Of a DNA stretch of 36,299 nucleotides, positions 5,191-36,299 are shown one piece after another. Under the pieces are notes generated by a model that did no database searches, was not told the origin of the DNA, and saw nothing but the letters and a program-made list of their open reading frames with translations. The stretch comes from Actinomycetota bacterium. Lineage in GTDB: Bacteria > Actinomycetota > Coriobacteriia > Anaerosomatales > UBA3086. A program made the position numbers and the translations under genes. Numbering within the stretch: the first letter of the stretch is position 1; each line of letters opens with the position of its first letter. The stretch is from positions 1 to 36,299 of the forward strand of contig JAQIBK010000170.1 of assembly GCA_027859125.1 (NCBI GenBank). Direction: 5' to 3'.

Positions 5191-7389
5191 ATGTCAAGTA
5201 GGCGAGCTCGTGCCAGGCGCCACAAAGGCGCTGGCAAAGGAATCATCATCATGCGAGTTGCCGTCGTCGCAGTCGCGGCGCTACTTGTCCTGGCCGCTTC
5301 CGGCGCTTTCACCGGATATGCGGTGGCGATGTCCTGGCTCGAGGACCTTCCGGACTACCAGTCGGCCGAGGCTTTCGAACTGGCTCAGCCCACCAAGATA
5401 TACTCCGCCGACGGTGTGCTTCTAGCCCGTCTGTTCCTTGAGAACCGCACCACCGTTCCCATGTCCGAGATCGCAACCGACCTGGCCGACGCCATCGTGG
5501 CCATCGAGGACGAACGCTTCTACCAGCATGACGGTGTGGACTACCTGGGTATCGCGCGCGCCGCCTTCAAGGACGTCATAGCAGGCGACTTCGACGAGGG
5601 CGCCTCCACCATTACTCAGCAGTACATCGATAACACGGTCTTGCGTGACGAGCGCACCGATCGCACCCTGCGCTACAAAGCGCGCGAAGCGTATCTCGCA
5701 CTTGAACTGGAGAAGCTGAAATCCAAAGAGGAGATCCTTGGCCTCTATCTCAACGCGATCTACCTTGGTGACGGAGCGTACGGCGCACAAGCGGCGGCCC
5801 ACACCTACTTCGCCAAGGACGCAAAGGACTTGACCTTGCCTGAGGCCGCCACCCTGGCCGCTCTGGCGCAGGCACCGAGCAGGCTGAACCCGTACGATAA
5901 TCCCGAAGGCGCCACACAACGACGCAATCTCGTACTGGGACGCATGCTCGCCAACAACTTCATCACCCAGACCGAGCACGATGAGGCCATCGCGGCCCCC
6001 ATGGCGGTCGAGGGCAGCGAAGAGCCCGAGGGTGGCATCTATCAGGCGCATTACTTCGTCGCCCACGTCAAGAAGGTCCTGCAGCAGGAGTACAGCCAGT
6101 CGCTCGTGTTCCAGGGCGGATTGACAGTGTACACCACCCTCGACACCCGCCTGCAGGGATACGCCGAGGATGCGGTGTTCTCTCGCTACTACCGCGACAC
6201 TGATCCCAACTGCGCCTTGGTGTCGATCGACCACACCAACGGGCATGTTGTGGCAATGGTCGGTGGAGATGACTTCTCTGAGAACAAGTTCAACCTGGCA
6301 ACCCAAGGCAGACGTCAGCCGGGTTCAGCGTTCAAGATGTTCGTGCTGGTCACCGCGCTCGAGGATGGCATGCCCCCCAGCCGCTACGTGGACTCCAGCT
6401 CCCCTGCTGTGATCCCGACCAATCCTCCCTGGGTCGTCAGCAACAGTGAGGGCTACGGTCGAGGAATGATCACAATGCGGGCGGGCACGCGCGGCTCGGT
6501 CAACACGGTGTTCGCGCGTCTGATCTTCGAACTGGGTGCGGACAAGGTCGCTGCCACAGCGCGGCGCATGGGCATCACGTCCGATGTGCCCGCCTACCCG
6601 TCCATCGCTCTGGGCACTCACAACGTGTCGGTGATTGACATGGCGTCGGCATTTGGCACGCTGGCCAATTTGGGAACGCGCAACGATCCGGTCGTGATAA
6701 CGAAGGTGCTCGATCGTGCCGGCGAAACGGTCTTTGAGTCCACGCTGCTGCCCCAGGAAGTCGTTTCGCCCGAGATCGCATATGCGGCGATCAACATCAT
6801 GAAGGGCGTTATCACCGGAGGCACGGCGCGACGTGCCAACATAGGTCGACCGGCTGCCGGCAAGACCGGGACCAGCCAGAACTACCGCGACGCATGGTTC
6901 TGCGGCTTCACTCCGCAGCTCACCACGGCAGTCTGGACGGGCTACTACGAAAGAGAGACATCCATGCGCAACGTCAACGGGGTCCGTGGTTTTGGAGGAA
7001 CGCTCTCCGCCCCGGTGTGGGCGGACTACATGTCAAAGGCGCTCGAAGGTCTGCCTGCCGTGGATTGGCCACGTCAGGAGACACCCGACTATCGCTGGAA
7101 GTCCGCGTGGGCCGCGACGCAACCGACCACCTCGTATCTGGGCTTCTACCTGGAGAGCGTTCTCAAGGATCTCAATGAGTCCGGATTCAAGATCGTTATC
7201 GGTGAGCAGTACCACCCCAACGCCCTTGCTGGTGTGGTGATCGGACAAGTGCCCGCACCGGGTGACCCGATCTCTCCGGGTGCCGCACTGACACTCACTG
7301 TGTCCAAGGGCCCCATTCCTGCACCGCCGCCGCCGCCGTCGGTGCCGACGACCGGCGCACCGAGCCCGCCAACCACTGGCACCCCATAG
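5191..7389 (+). CDS. Class A penicillin-binding protein with C-terminal PASTA domain
   Basis: A second bifunctional peptidoglycan glycosyltransferase/transpeptidase (732 aa), paralogous to the PBP at the left edge. An Arg-rich cytosolic tail is followed by a single membrane anchor (about 20-42). GT51 motifs are IEDERFYQHDG (catalytic Glu about 106) and STITQQ (139-144). Transpeptidase motifs are SAFK (Ser379, Lys382), SVN (436-438) and KTGT (558-561). One PASTA-like domain (about 640-710) leads into a Pro/Thr-rich tail that may cross the wall. The start is set by GGAGGTGAG shortly before ATG. It lacks the PKD domain and the cysteine loop of the first PBP, so the two probably differ in partners or location. 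Confidence 0.95.
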   Translation: MSSRRARARRHKGAGKGIIIMRVAVVAVAALLVLAASGAFTGYAVAMSWLEDLPDYQSAEAFELAQPTKIYSADGVLLARLFLENRTTVPMSEIATDLADAIVAIEDERFYQHDGVDYLGIARAAFKDVIAGDFDEGASTITQQYIDNTVLRDERTDRTLRYKAREAYLALELEKLKSKEEILGLYLNAIYLGDGAYGAQAAAHTYFAKDAKDLTLPEAATLAALAQAPSRLNPYDNPEGATQRRNLVLGRMLANNFITQTEHDEAIAAPMAVEGSEEPEGGIYQAHYFVAHVKKVLQQEYSQSLVFQGGLTVYTTLDTRLQGYAEDAVFSRYYRDTDPNCALVSIDHTNGHVVAMVGGDDFSENKFNLATQGRRQPGSAFKMFVLVTALEDGMPPSRYVDSSSPAVIPTNPPWVVSNSEGYGRGMITMRAGTRGSVNTVFARLIFELGADKVAATARRMGITSDVPAYPSIALGTHNVSVIDMASAFGTLANLGTRNDPVVITKVLDRAGETVFESTLLPQEVVSPEIAYAAINIMKGVITGGTARRANIGRPAAGKTGTSQNYRDAWFCGFTPQLTTAVWTGYYERETSMRNVNGVRGFGGTLSAPVWADYMSKALEGLPAVDWPRQETPDYRWKSAWAATQPTTSYLGFYLESVLKDLNESGFKIVIGEQYHPNALAGVVIGQVPAPGDPISPGAALTLTVSKGPIPAPPPPPSVPTTGAPSPPTTGTP

Positions 7390-7498: not shown

Positions 7499-8461
7499 CT
7501 ACGTGCGCTTCACACGCACCATGCCCGAAGTGCACAAGATCTGGATCTCTCCGGCCTTCTCGATCTCATCGAGAATGAGATTCATGCCGATCACGTCCGA
7601 TGATATGTGTCCCGCGATGATCAGATTGAGCTTGAGCTCCTCGGCACGCTTTCTGTGATCCTCGGAGTAGTGCATGCCCACCAGCGTTCCCACACCGGCC
7701 GCGGAAAGCCGGTTCAAGGCGTCTGTGGGGCCCTCGGTGCCGCCGGTCATGTCCACGACTATGCGACCGGGACGGTTGGCTCCATCGCCCTGCACCAGAA
7801 TGGGGCCATATCCCTTCTTGGCCGCGTCCTTGTACTCGGGGATATCGCGTAGCGACTTCACGACCGCGTCGAGCGTCTCGGGCTTCGCAGCCTCAAGGTG
7901 CGCCTGCACGAAGGCATTGACGGAGTTGTCGGCCGGAGTATGGCAGGACATCGAGGCGAAGCCGAGCAGGTTGGCCGCGTCGATCGCACGATAGTGGTTC
8001 GCCGGCATGATGCGACGGCGAACCTCTTGGGCACGCGGGCCTATCAGTGCGTCAGCGGCGCCGATGGCGACACCTTGGTCAGCCCAGAGGTCGGCCTGCA
8101 TGAGCATGACCTCGTGGAGGTTGGCGAAGCCGGGACCCTCGGGGTGATGCGACAGCACCAGGTCGATGGGCGCGCCCTTCTCGCGGAGACGATCAGCCAG
8201 GAGTACCTCTGCGGCCTCCATGTCGATACCGGTGATCAGACCGCGGATCTCCATCTCAGGGTCGCCCGCGCAGATGCGGGTGTCGGCGTAGGGATTCGTG
8301 AACTTCTCGGTGTCAAAGAACTCCTTGTCCTCAGCCTCCAGCTCGTCGAACGCCTTCTGCTCGTTGGCCATGACGCGAGCGAGCTCCTTGGAGTCGCGCT
8401 TGTCCTGGTCCATGCCGTGCGCCACCGCGATTCGGTAGATGTCTTTGAGTTTCACTGGCAC
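7499..8461 (-). CDS. NIF3-like (NGG1p-interacting factor 3 family) protein
   Basis: A 320-residue protein of the NIF3 / DUF34 type, a family of probable dinuclear-metal proteins whose reaction is not established. Histidine-rich motifs fit metal ligands: LVLSHHPEGPG near the middle, and near the C-terminus MHYSEDHRKRAEE and IIAGHISSDVIGMN. It begins with GTG, preceded by GGGGAG five bases upstream. It lies 44 bp downstream of the DNA glycosylase gene and is the last gene before the hairpin at 7407, so it may be the tail of the arg transcription unit. I recognise the family but cannot give a substrate; a hydrolase or metal-chaperone role is only a guess. Confidence 0.75.
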   Translation of the reverse strand: MPVKLKDIYRIAVAHGMDQDKRDSKELARVMANEQKAFDELEAEDKEFFDTEKFTNPYADTRICAGDPEMEIRGLITGIDMEAAEVLLADRLREKGAPIDLVLSHHPEGPGFANLHEVMLMQADLWADQGVAIGAADALIGPRAQEVRRRIMPANHYRAIDAANLLGFASMSCHTPADNSVNAFVQAHLEAAKPETLDAVVKSLRDIPEYKDAAKKGYGPILVQGDGANRPGRIVVDMTGGTEGPTDALNRLSAAGVGTLVGMHYSEDHRKRAEELKLNLIIAGHISSDVIGMNLILDEIEKAGEIQILCTSGMVRVKRT

Positions 8462-8505
8462 GAACTCCCCTTTCCTGACGCGTCGCCCAGAAGCGACGCG
8501 AGCTA

Positions 8506-9117
8506 TCAGCCGATCCGACCTTTGGACACATTCTTGTGTCCTTCGAGATAGTAACGCAGATGCAGTTCGTGCCCCGCAGAAAGGCCGATGCGACCCGATG
8601 TCGCAACTCTCTCGCCTGCCGGAAGCCGCAGAGCATGAATCCGAATCGCACTATCGATGAGTCCACCCCCGTTGTCGGACATGGTCAGTCCCAGAGCCGC
8701 CGCAAGCTTGCCGGGACCATTGGTGAGTTCGCGGTCAGACCGACCTTGCCGACGCAAACGCATCGTCTCGAGACCGATAGTGGGCTCGATGGCACGAATG
8801 AGAACCGCACCCGCCGTCCCTTCCGACTCGCACACGAGGTTCAACATGTGGTGATTGCCGTACGTGAAGTAGACGTACAGGTGGCCGGGAGGTCCATACA
8901 TCGTGGCGTTACGTTTGGTGATGCCCTTGGTCGCAGCGTGAGAACCCGGATCGTCCGATCCCAGATACGCCTCTGTCTCAACGATGCGTCCGCCCGTGAC
9001 CACGCCATCCTTGTCGGAAATGAGCAGCATCCCCAAGAGTTCCGGCGCGACTGCACGCGGATCGCGATCGAAGAACCCTTGCTGCACCAAAGCCGCGTCT
9101 GATAGTGGTACAGCCAC
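8506..9117 (-). CDS. 3-methyladenine DNA glycosylase (AAG/MPG family)
   Basis: A base-excision repair enzyme that cuts alkylated purines from DNA. Recognisable family blocks are LLGMLLISDKDG, GGRIVETEAYLG (with the catalytic Glu), GPPGHLYVYFTYGNHHMLN and RELTNGPGKLAAALGL. About 203 residues is the usual length. The ORF track begins at a GTG at 9162 that would overlap argH and has no ribosome site. I prefer the GTG at 9117, with AAAGGGAA a short distance upstream and a 20-bp gap after the argH stop. The position directly behind argH suggests co-transcription with arginine genes although the functions are unrelated. Confidence 0.92.
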   Translation of the reverse strand: MAVPLSDAALVQQGFFDRDPRAVAPELLGMLLISDKDGVVTGGRIVETEAYLGSDDPGSHAATKGITKRNATMYGPPGHLYVYFTYGNHHMLNLVCESEGTAGAVLIRAIEPTIGLETMRLRRQGRSDRELTNGPGKLAAALGLTMSDNGGGLIDSAIRIHALRLPAGERVATSGRIGLSAGHELHLRYYLEGHKNVSKGRIG

Positions 9118-9137
9118 CTTGTTTCCCTTTGCGGAGC

Positions 9138-34468: not shown

Positions 34469-34553
<85 letters not shown>

Positions 34554-34621: not shown

Positions 34622-36154
34622 CTAGGCGATCTTGTCGTCGGCAACATGGTAGTGGGGGTCCTCCATGATGTTAACCTCCATCATGCCCTTCGCATCATCC
34701 AGGAGCTCCAGGCAATCGGGGCTCAGATGACGCAGGTGCAGGCGTTTGCCCACGGCCGTATAGCGCGCAGCGAGCGCGTCGATAGCCTCAAGCGCTGAGT
34801 GATCGACGACCTTGGATCGCATGAACTCGACGATCACGTCCTGCGGATCGTCCTTGGGACTGAAGAGCGTCTGAAACTCACCGGCCGAGGCGAAGAACAG
34901 GGAACCCTCAAGCTCGTAGACACGCCACCCGTTGTCATCTTCATACGTTGTGACGTTGATGTGTTTCGCGTGTTCCCATGCGAAGACGAGCGCTGCGATC
35001 ACGACACCGGCAACCACGGCGATCGCAAGATCGGTCAGAACGGTGACCACGGTGACGCCCACAACGATCATCGCATCGGAACGCGGAATGCGTCGAAGGG
35101 CCTGCAGGCTCCCCCACTCGAACGTCTTCTCGGCCACCACGAACATCACTGCGATGAGAGCCGCCAGCGGAATCGCCTCGATGAGCGTCGACCCGAACAT
35201 GATGAAGGCGATCAGGAACAATGATGCACCGATTCCGGACAGACGCCGGAGCGCGCCATTGTTCACGTTGATCATGCTCTGCCCGATCATGGCGCAACCA
35301 CCCATGCCTCCAAAGAAGCCGGTGACGATGTTCGCGGCACCCTGTGCCAGACACTCCTTGTTGGGCCGACCACGCGTGTCGGTCATGGTGTCGATGAGGT
35401 TGAGCGTGAGCAGGGACTCGATGAGGCCAATAGCCGCCAGAATGAGCGAGTACGGGAAGATGATTCGAAGCGTCTCTAGATTCAAGGGCACCGCGGGAAG
35501 ATGAAACTCGGGCAGTCCGCCTGCGATCGAACCCATGTCGCCAACGGTCTTGGTGTCGAGGCCCAGCACGATGACGAGCGCGGAGACTGACACGATACCC
35601 ACGAGGGTGGCAGGAACCGCCTTGGTGAGCTTGGGAAAGAGATAGATGATCGCAACCGTGAGCGCGATCAGCCCCAACATGACGTAGAGCTGCGGACCCT
35701 GCATCCACACGTGCTCGCCGCCTGATCCGGCCACTTTGAAGTGCTCGAACTGCGCCAGGAAGATGACGATCGCCAAACCGTTGACGAAGCCGAGCATAAC
35801 CGGGTGAGGGACCATGCGGATGAACTTGCCCAGACGCGCGATACCAAAGGCCAACTGAAGCACGCCCATGAGCACTACGGCCGCGAACAGATACTCGACG
35901 CCGTGATCGACCACGAGTGCGACCATGACCACGGCCAGTGCGCCGGTGGCGCCGGATATCATGCCCGGCCGTCCACCAAAGATGGCGGTGATGAGCGACA
36001 CCATGAATGCAGCGTACAGTCCGACGAGCGGATCGACCTGTGCGACCAGGGCGAATGCGATCGCCTCGGGCACGAGTGCCAGAGCGACCGTGAGGCCGCT
36101 CAGAAGGTTCGTTCTTATCTCCTGCATGGTGAGTCCGAACAAATGGTGCTCCAT
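34622..36154 (-). CDS. SulP/SLC26 family anion transporter with STAS domain
   Basis: An inner-membrane carrier of 510 aa. The SulP transmembrane core shows SGLTVALALVPEAIAFALVA at the N-terminus, MISGATGALAVVMVAL, and the FGGMGGCAMIGQS loop with the NVNNGALRRLSG segment; the C-terminal STAS domain covers about 400-500 (VYELEGSLFFASAGEFQTLF). Family members move sulfate, bicarbonate or other anions; the short form with SLLTLNLIDTMTDTRG resembles the BicA-like group, but the substrate cannot be fixed. ATG 36154 has no clear SD; a second ATG at 36127 is possible. It stands alone, followed by the tRNA-Leu gene. Confidence 0.93.
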   Translation of the reverse strand: MEHHLFGLTMQEIRTNLLSGLTVALALVPEAIAFALVAQVDPLVGLYAAFMVSLITAIFGGRPGMISGATGALAVVMVALVVDHGVEYLFAAVVLMGVLQLAFGIARLGKFIRMVPHPVMLGFVNGLAIVIFLAQFEHFKVAGSGGEHVWMQGPQLYVMLGLIALTVAIIYLFPKLTKAVPATLVGIVSVSALVIVLGLDTKTVGDMGSIAGGLPEFHLPAVPLNLETLRIIFPYSLILAAIGLIESLLTLNLIDTMTDTRGRPNKECLAQGAANIVTGFFGGMGGCAMIGQSMINVNNGALRRLSGIGASLFLIAFIMFGSTLIEAIPLAALIAVMFVVAEKTFEWGSLQALRRIPRSDAMIVVGVTVVTVLTDLAIAVVAGVVIAALVFAWEHAKHINVTTYEDDNGWRVYELEGSLFFASAGEFQTLFSPKDDPQDVIVEFMRSKVVDHSALEAIDALAARYTAVGKRLHLRHLSPDCLELLDDAKGMMEVNIMEDPHYHVADDKIA

Positions 36155-36191
36155 TCATGATGACGTGAGGCTTCGATGGGAGACAGCACAA

Positions 36192-36221
36192 GAAGCTCCC
36201 AGCCCGAAGGTCAGGAGCTTC
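36192..36221 (-). terminator. Hairpin downstream of the tRNA-Lys 3' sequence
   Basis: GAAGCTCC and GGAGCTTC form an 8-bp stem around a region with a TTCG loop, followed by TTGTGCTG leftward. Placed as a terminator for a tRNA transcript coming from the right. Confidence 0.6.
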
Positions 36222-36232
36222 CGATGTGTCGA

Positions 36233-36299
36233 TGGTGGGCCGTGTAGGGGTCGAACCTACGGCCCGCTGATTAAGAGTCCTGCCGAGAACCTACCTCAG
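36233..36299 (-). tRNA. tRNA-Lys (anticodon CUU) 3' half, probably an att fragment
   Basis: Reading leftward, CTCTTAATCAGCGGGCC, the T-arm TAGGTTCGACCCCTA, the acceptor strand CGGCCC and CCA match the 3' half of a tRNA-Lys. From the anticodon loop back to base 36299 the sequence does not form a tRNA: only two pairs of the anticodon stem form and the expected AGCTCAG D-arm is absent. The window ends about nine bases short of a full tRNA length, so the acceptor 5' strand cannot be checked. Best read as a 3' fragment; a degenerate or unusual complete tRNA is the alternative. Confidence 0.6.

Follow-up and report, generated by a model that had tools for sequence, protein, structure and literature searches.

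The question raised by this locus is whether a chromosomal contig that ends within a tRNA gene preserves there the attachment site of an integrative element and, if so, how the sequences of the host and of the element came to be joined. Phages and islands routinely use tRNA genes as points of entry. The window, that is, the whole stretch of 36,299 nucleotides analysed here, is the entire contig C122 rather than a piece cut from a longer sequence, and its right end falls inside a tRNA-Lys gene. The source bin comprises 2.39 Mb in 322 contigs and is 90.7% complete. The content of the window is that of an ordinary chromosome, with penicillin-binding proteins, arginine biosynthesis, the Phe-, Thr- and Val-tRNA synthetases, ClpX-ClpP-trigger factor, a tRNA-Leu and a SulP permease (Table 1).

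A tRNA-Lys(CUU) gene split between two contig ends

The reverse complement of positions 36233–36280, GGACTCTTAATCAGCGGGCCGTAGGTTCGACCCCTACACGGCCCACCA, corresponds to positions 29 to 76 of tRNA-Lys(CUU), CCA included, so that the 3′ half proposed by the first-pass annotation is real. No tRNA was called at 36233–36280 by ARAGORN or by Rfam at its gathering score, and forced Rfam scoring gave the half tRNA 13.3 bits against a cut-off of 29 bits. When the right-end 400 bases were compared by BLAST with 61 genomes of relatives, the alignments ended exactly at 36280 in nearly all best matches. Beyond this point, positions 36281–36299 (on the minus strand, CTGAGGTAGGTTCTCGGCA) form neither a D-arm nor a 5′ anticodon stem and do not continue the tRNA, as had also been claimed. 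However, the mismatch is not limited to the 5′ side, as the 3′ anticodon-stem strand and the variable loop (positions 39–48) depart as well from the tRNA-Lys of the lineage. The hairpin noted downstream of the half gene is likewise present, with 8-bp arms, and aligns with the terminator that follows tRNA-Lys in the genome G001. Position 36280 therefore bounds a tRNA 3′ fragment that has no 5′ part on this contig; the half-tRNA observation is correct, and chance is excluded.

In G001, which belongs to the same genus, the tRNA genes Pro(UGG)-Gly(UCC)-Arg(UCU)-His(GUG)-Lys(CUU)-Leu(UAG) are intact and lie in a single row, and many other relatives also hold an intact tRNA at this site. In the genome studied here, Pro-Gly-Arg-His are located on another contig, C60, the last bases of which, ...GGGCCGTTAGCTCAGCTGGCAGAGCAGGGGAC, are the first 32 bases of tRNA-Lys. 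Therefore, the tRNA-Lys locus is split within the tRNA itself, with its halves on the ends of two contigs: C122 ends with tRNA positions 29–76 followed by 19 foreign bases, and C60 ends within ~3 bases of the foreign boundary. The rest of the 90.7% complete bin yielded no intact tRNA-Lys(CUU), but only the 5′ half at the end of C60; contig C300 carries a tRNA-Lys(UUU).

Table 1. Features near the right end of the window (positions count from the first base of the 36,299-nucleotide stretch).
Feature	Position	Strand	Evidence
tRNA-Leu(UAG), intact, host-side marker of the locus	34469..34553	-	ARAGORN; Rfam, 56.4 bits
Gene for a SulP-type anion permease of 510 aa, flanked by tRNA-Lys and tRNA-Leu	34622..36154	-	Pfam Sulfate_transp (2.1e-55) and STAS
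Hairpin, terminator-like, host sequence, downstream of tRNA-Lys	36192..36221	-	Inverted repeat GAAGCTCC...GGAGCTTC; 36188-36280 aligns with the G001 site at 83% identity
Host-type part: T-arm, acceptor 3′ strand and CCA (tRNA positions 48-76)	36233..36261	-	Identity to G001
Putative foreign, attP-like part GGACTCTTAATCAGCGGGC (tRNA positions 29-47) with anticodon CUU and TCAGC-type stem	36262..36280	-	Five clustered differences; exact 30-mer in viral locus L144 beside an integrase; absent from 149 other class genomes
Non-tRNA flank, candidate attachment-site arm, reaching the contig end	36281..36299	-	No tRNA 5′ half; no second copy

Host and foreign sequence within the 3′ half

The 3′ half is not uniform in its affinities. 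At positions 39–48, all 23 intact tRNA-Lys(CUU) genes retrieved from the order, that of G001 among them, read TCCCAAGGTC, whereas the window carries TCAGCGGGCC. Paired with the 5′ half on C60 (GGGGA), TCAGCGGGCC would give G-G and G-A at two of the five stem pairs; the C60 half fits TCCCA, not TCAGC. In contrast to this segment, positions 48–76 and at least the next eight downstream bases are identical to the tRNA-Lys(CUU) of G001 (L013). The five differences from G001 all fall inside 7 of the 54 aligned positions, for which the chance under random placement is ~0.0002, and this clustering points to a recombination block rather than to drift. A class-level pattern search covering 150 genomes, including the present one, found GACTCTTAATCAGCGGGNC (the TCAGCGGGNC type) in none of the other 149, and the sole near match in the order lies in G009, on a probable contaminant contig where RHS and LysM genes accompany an integrase.

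Judged by these identities, the T-arm, the acceptor and the terminator are the host's. Since TCAGCGGGCC is of a non-host, viral type while these three parts are of host type, at least positions 36262–36299 appear to be att-like DNA of foreign origin, which meets the host tRNA within or close to the T-arm. The foreign stretch is short, only ~38–42 bases, which is less than a sequencing read, and lies directly at the contig end.

Attachment sites in viral contigs and the search for an element

In viral contigs, tRNA-Lys(CUU) attachment sites typically have the segment TCAGCGGGCC. In IMG/VR, 43 contig stretches contain GACTCTTAATCAGCGGGYCGTAGGTTCGA, with an intact tRNA-Lys(CUU) in 15 and none in 28, and in nearly all of these 28, as in the window, the resemblance to a tRNA breaks off on the 5′ side of the anticodon loop. 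In three viral records, an intact tRNA-Lys(CUU) is accompanied by a displaced copy of its 3′ half; the exact repeats, of 66, 53 and 49 bases, start in the 5′ anticodon stem, and the two forms are textbook attL/attR pairs. The closest viral match, L144 (IMGVR_UViG_3300013233_000855), has 30 exact bases in common with the window and a Phage_integrase gene (tyrosine integrase) ~180 bases downstream; GGACTCTTAATCAGCGGGCCGTAGGTTCGA is shared exactly, and non-tRNA sequence lies upstream in both. However, their flanking arms are unrelated, and the L144 integrase lies 3′ of the half tRNA, a place taken in the window by the host terminator and SulP. Because the viral halves are cut alike and L144 matches exactly, positions 36262–36299 look like part of a foreign attachment site of the tRNA-Lys(CUU) kind, namely its anticodon side together with 19 bases of its arm. 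The exact T-arm and acceptor of the host occur in none of the 43 viral stretches, and no element with a host-type TCCCAAGGTC 3′ half was found in IMG/VR. Among GenBank phages, the matches were partial and of the tRNA type, none of the records reaching 80% coverage of the query.

This is a site of a known kind, and the kind of system is ordinary. The anticodon-loop class of att sites is common: in the Islander collection, 2083 of 3919 islands are centred on the anticodon (PMC4383910). In this anticodon class, strand exchange takes place in the anticodon loop, and the displaced fragment beside the host flank is the host's own (PMC4383910; see also PMC8371274); a class with crossover at the T-loop or the T-acceptor junction (J) exists as well (PMC4383910). 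The window shares with the tRNA-gene islands and prophages of the anticodon class (PMC4383910; Williams 2002) a CCA-ending 3′ fragment cut at the anticodon loop, orthologous to an intact tRNA and in attR orientation. It differs from them in that the fragment comes without an attachable second copy, integrase or element, and in being a mosaic of a foreign anticodon side and a host T-arm.

Within its own genome, the 3′ half has no second copy at up to three mismatches. Searches with the tail at 36281–36299, or with a 20-base tail plus flank, likewise retrieved no second copy from the same genome (up to three mismatches), from 399 other genomes of the class or from IMG/VR. The bin contains nine Phage_integrase matches, several of them near other tRNAs and none tied to this locus, from which the contig extends 19 bases into the candidate element. 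The integrase contigs C308, C302, C162, C96, C249, C194, C172 and C208 carry no fragment of tRNA-Lys, nor does any of their ends overlap the tail, and the relatives of the L144 integrase in the bin are only 25–32% identical to it.

Other integrases of this survey lie beside tRNA sequences. On contig C194 (L203), a tRNA-Pro(GGG) at 6223–6299 is followed ~180 bases downstream by a tyrosine integrase (6478–7029) pointing back to the tRNA, and within this genome the pair makes a better candidate for an element that targets a tRNA. Integrase sequences are also found near a tRNA-Met(CAU) on C162 (L200, 11194–11590) and near a tRNA-Arg(CCU) on C302 (L199, 13808–15273), both near contig ends. The G009 contig C125 (L145) carries, at 7793–9131, a tRNA-Lys(CUU) 3′ half without a tRNA, directly adjoining an integrase of 423 aa; it was not counted as a relative, since both its genes and its acceptor stem are suggestive of contamination.

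Origin of the junction

We tentatively favour, with confidence somewhat short of even, an origin in which the right contig end is the attR-like, chromosome-side end of the tRNA-Lys(CUU) locus after the entry of a foreign integrative element. This element would have brought, in its attachment site, a TCAGC-type tRNA-Lys(CUU) 3′ half truncated at the anticodon loop, like those of many phage contigs. Recombination with the host gene, for which we infer a tyrosine integrase as the agent, would have taken place in or near the shared T-arm. Because of this place of exchange, the right junction would hold the anticodon side of the element followed by the T-arm, acceptor and terminator of the host. 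The intact host tRNA would then lie at the far end of the element, beside tRNA-His, where the retained host anticodon stem would leave it functional. The element may have been lost or may have stayed unbinned; if an unbinned one exists, it is expected as a contig ending in CTGAGGTAGGTTCTCGGCAG or its complement.

An exchange in the T-arm would be unusual for such an element. Sites cut at the anticodon loop normally recombine there, which would have kept the host TCCCAAGGTC, and we know of none that uses the T-loop or T-acceptor junction class. The mosaic boundary, at or left of 36261, is where a J crossover would be expected to leave it, and a chimeric join would look identical. Also against this origin, the foreign part amounts to at most ~42 bases at the contig end, and no continuation, second copy or assignable integrase was found for it. 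It is unlikely, in our assessment, that the agent was specifically a phage-like element whose att site matched the tRNA-Lys(CUU) of another host group and which entered the mismatched tRNA by T-arm exchange, sparing the host anticodon stem.

Nearly equal in probability to the mosaic attR is a chimeric contig tail, in which the conserved T-arm and acceptor (~28 bases) would have served, in the assembly or the library, to fuse the contig with reads from the att site of a foreign phage or prophage present in the sample, the host tRNA-Lys being intact. The shortness of the foreign stretch, its place at the very end of the contig and the failure of the searches to retrieve anything continuing the tail are in agreement with such a join, as are the absence of the TCAGCGGGNC type from the other class genomes sampled and its mispairing with the 5′ half on C60. 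Another contig of the bin, C164, likewise begins ~15 bases from a tRNA-like match. Nevertheless, intact foreign tRNA genes would be expected to take part in such joins more often than attachment sites do, but the tail lacks a D-arm; a k-mer join needs the exact T-arm and acceptor of the host, which the 43 viral stretches do not have; and C60 stops almost precisely at the foreign boundary. Should C60 and C122 be joined through TCTTAATCCCAAGGTC, either the tail would be chimeric or the population would be a mixed one in which some sites are empty.

The first-pass annotation had placed the exchange inside the anticodon loop, so that 36233–36280 would belong to the host itself, as the 3′ half that an element beginning near 36280 had displaced. 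The boundary at the anticodon loop agrees with this simpler attR, as does the frequency of anticodon-loop att sites among the Islander islands (PMC4383910). However, an anticodon-loop (A) crossover leaves the host's own 3′ half between the loop and the flank, and the window has instead the element-type TCAGCGGGCC where the intact relatives have TCCCAAGGTC. The host 5′ half on C60 does not fit this stem, and the differences are clustered, unlike the scatter of a decaying fragment. Because TCAGCGGGCC, and not the host TCCCAAGGTC, lies beside the host flank, the observed exchange point would be on the T-arm side, and a displaced host half is quite improbable. Therefore, the proposal of an attachment site stands in part: the half tRNA occupies the orthologous place of an intact tRNA-Lys(CUU), its 5′ half is on another contig end and similar halves occur in viruses, but the crossover in the anticodon loop with retention of the host's own half does not hold. 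A genuine tRNA of unusual form, or a tRNA-Lys interrupted by an intron and with its 5′ part further right, is very improbable: the anticodon loop is a possible site of tRNA introns, but the tRNA match begins at positions 29–30, in the 5′ anticodon stem, which is not an intron position, the 3′ stem is unpaired with the host 5′ half, Rfam gave no intron match and C60 carries the 5′ half without an intron start.

Should the mosaic be genuine, it would offer a small natural example of the place of strand exchange between an element and a tRNA that does not match it. The locus also illustrates that a contig ending within a tRNA can point to a missing element, and that the sequence of the 3′ stem is worth checking against the host lineage before an attR is called.

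The neighbourhood of the tRNA-Lys gene varies in other respects. A SulP permease gene intervenes between tRNA-Lys and tRNA-Leu in the window, while in G001 these tRNAs are separated by ~100 bases, without SulP. The genome G059, from another family, has SulP at the same position, with matching SulP DNA and a similar tRNA-Leu/tRNA-Lys spacing, and the gene is possibly an older insertion at the same spot; its relatives among named genomes are mainly proteobacterial. In G043, an open reading frame resembling formate-tetrahydrofolate ligase (named by eye; contig C178, L146, 317–2297) lies between tRNA-His and tRNA-Lys(CUU), and the tRNA row is therefore broken at different places in different genomes.
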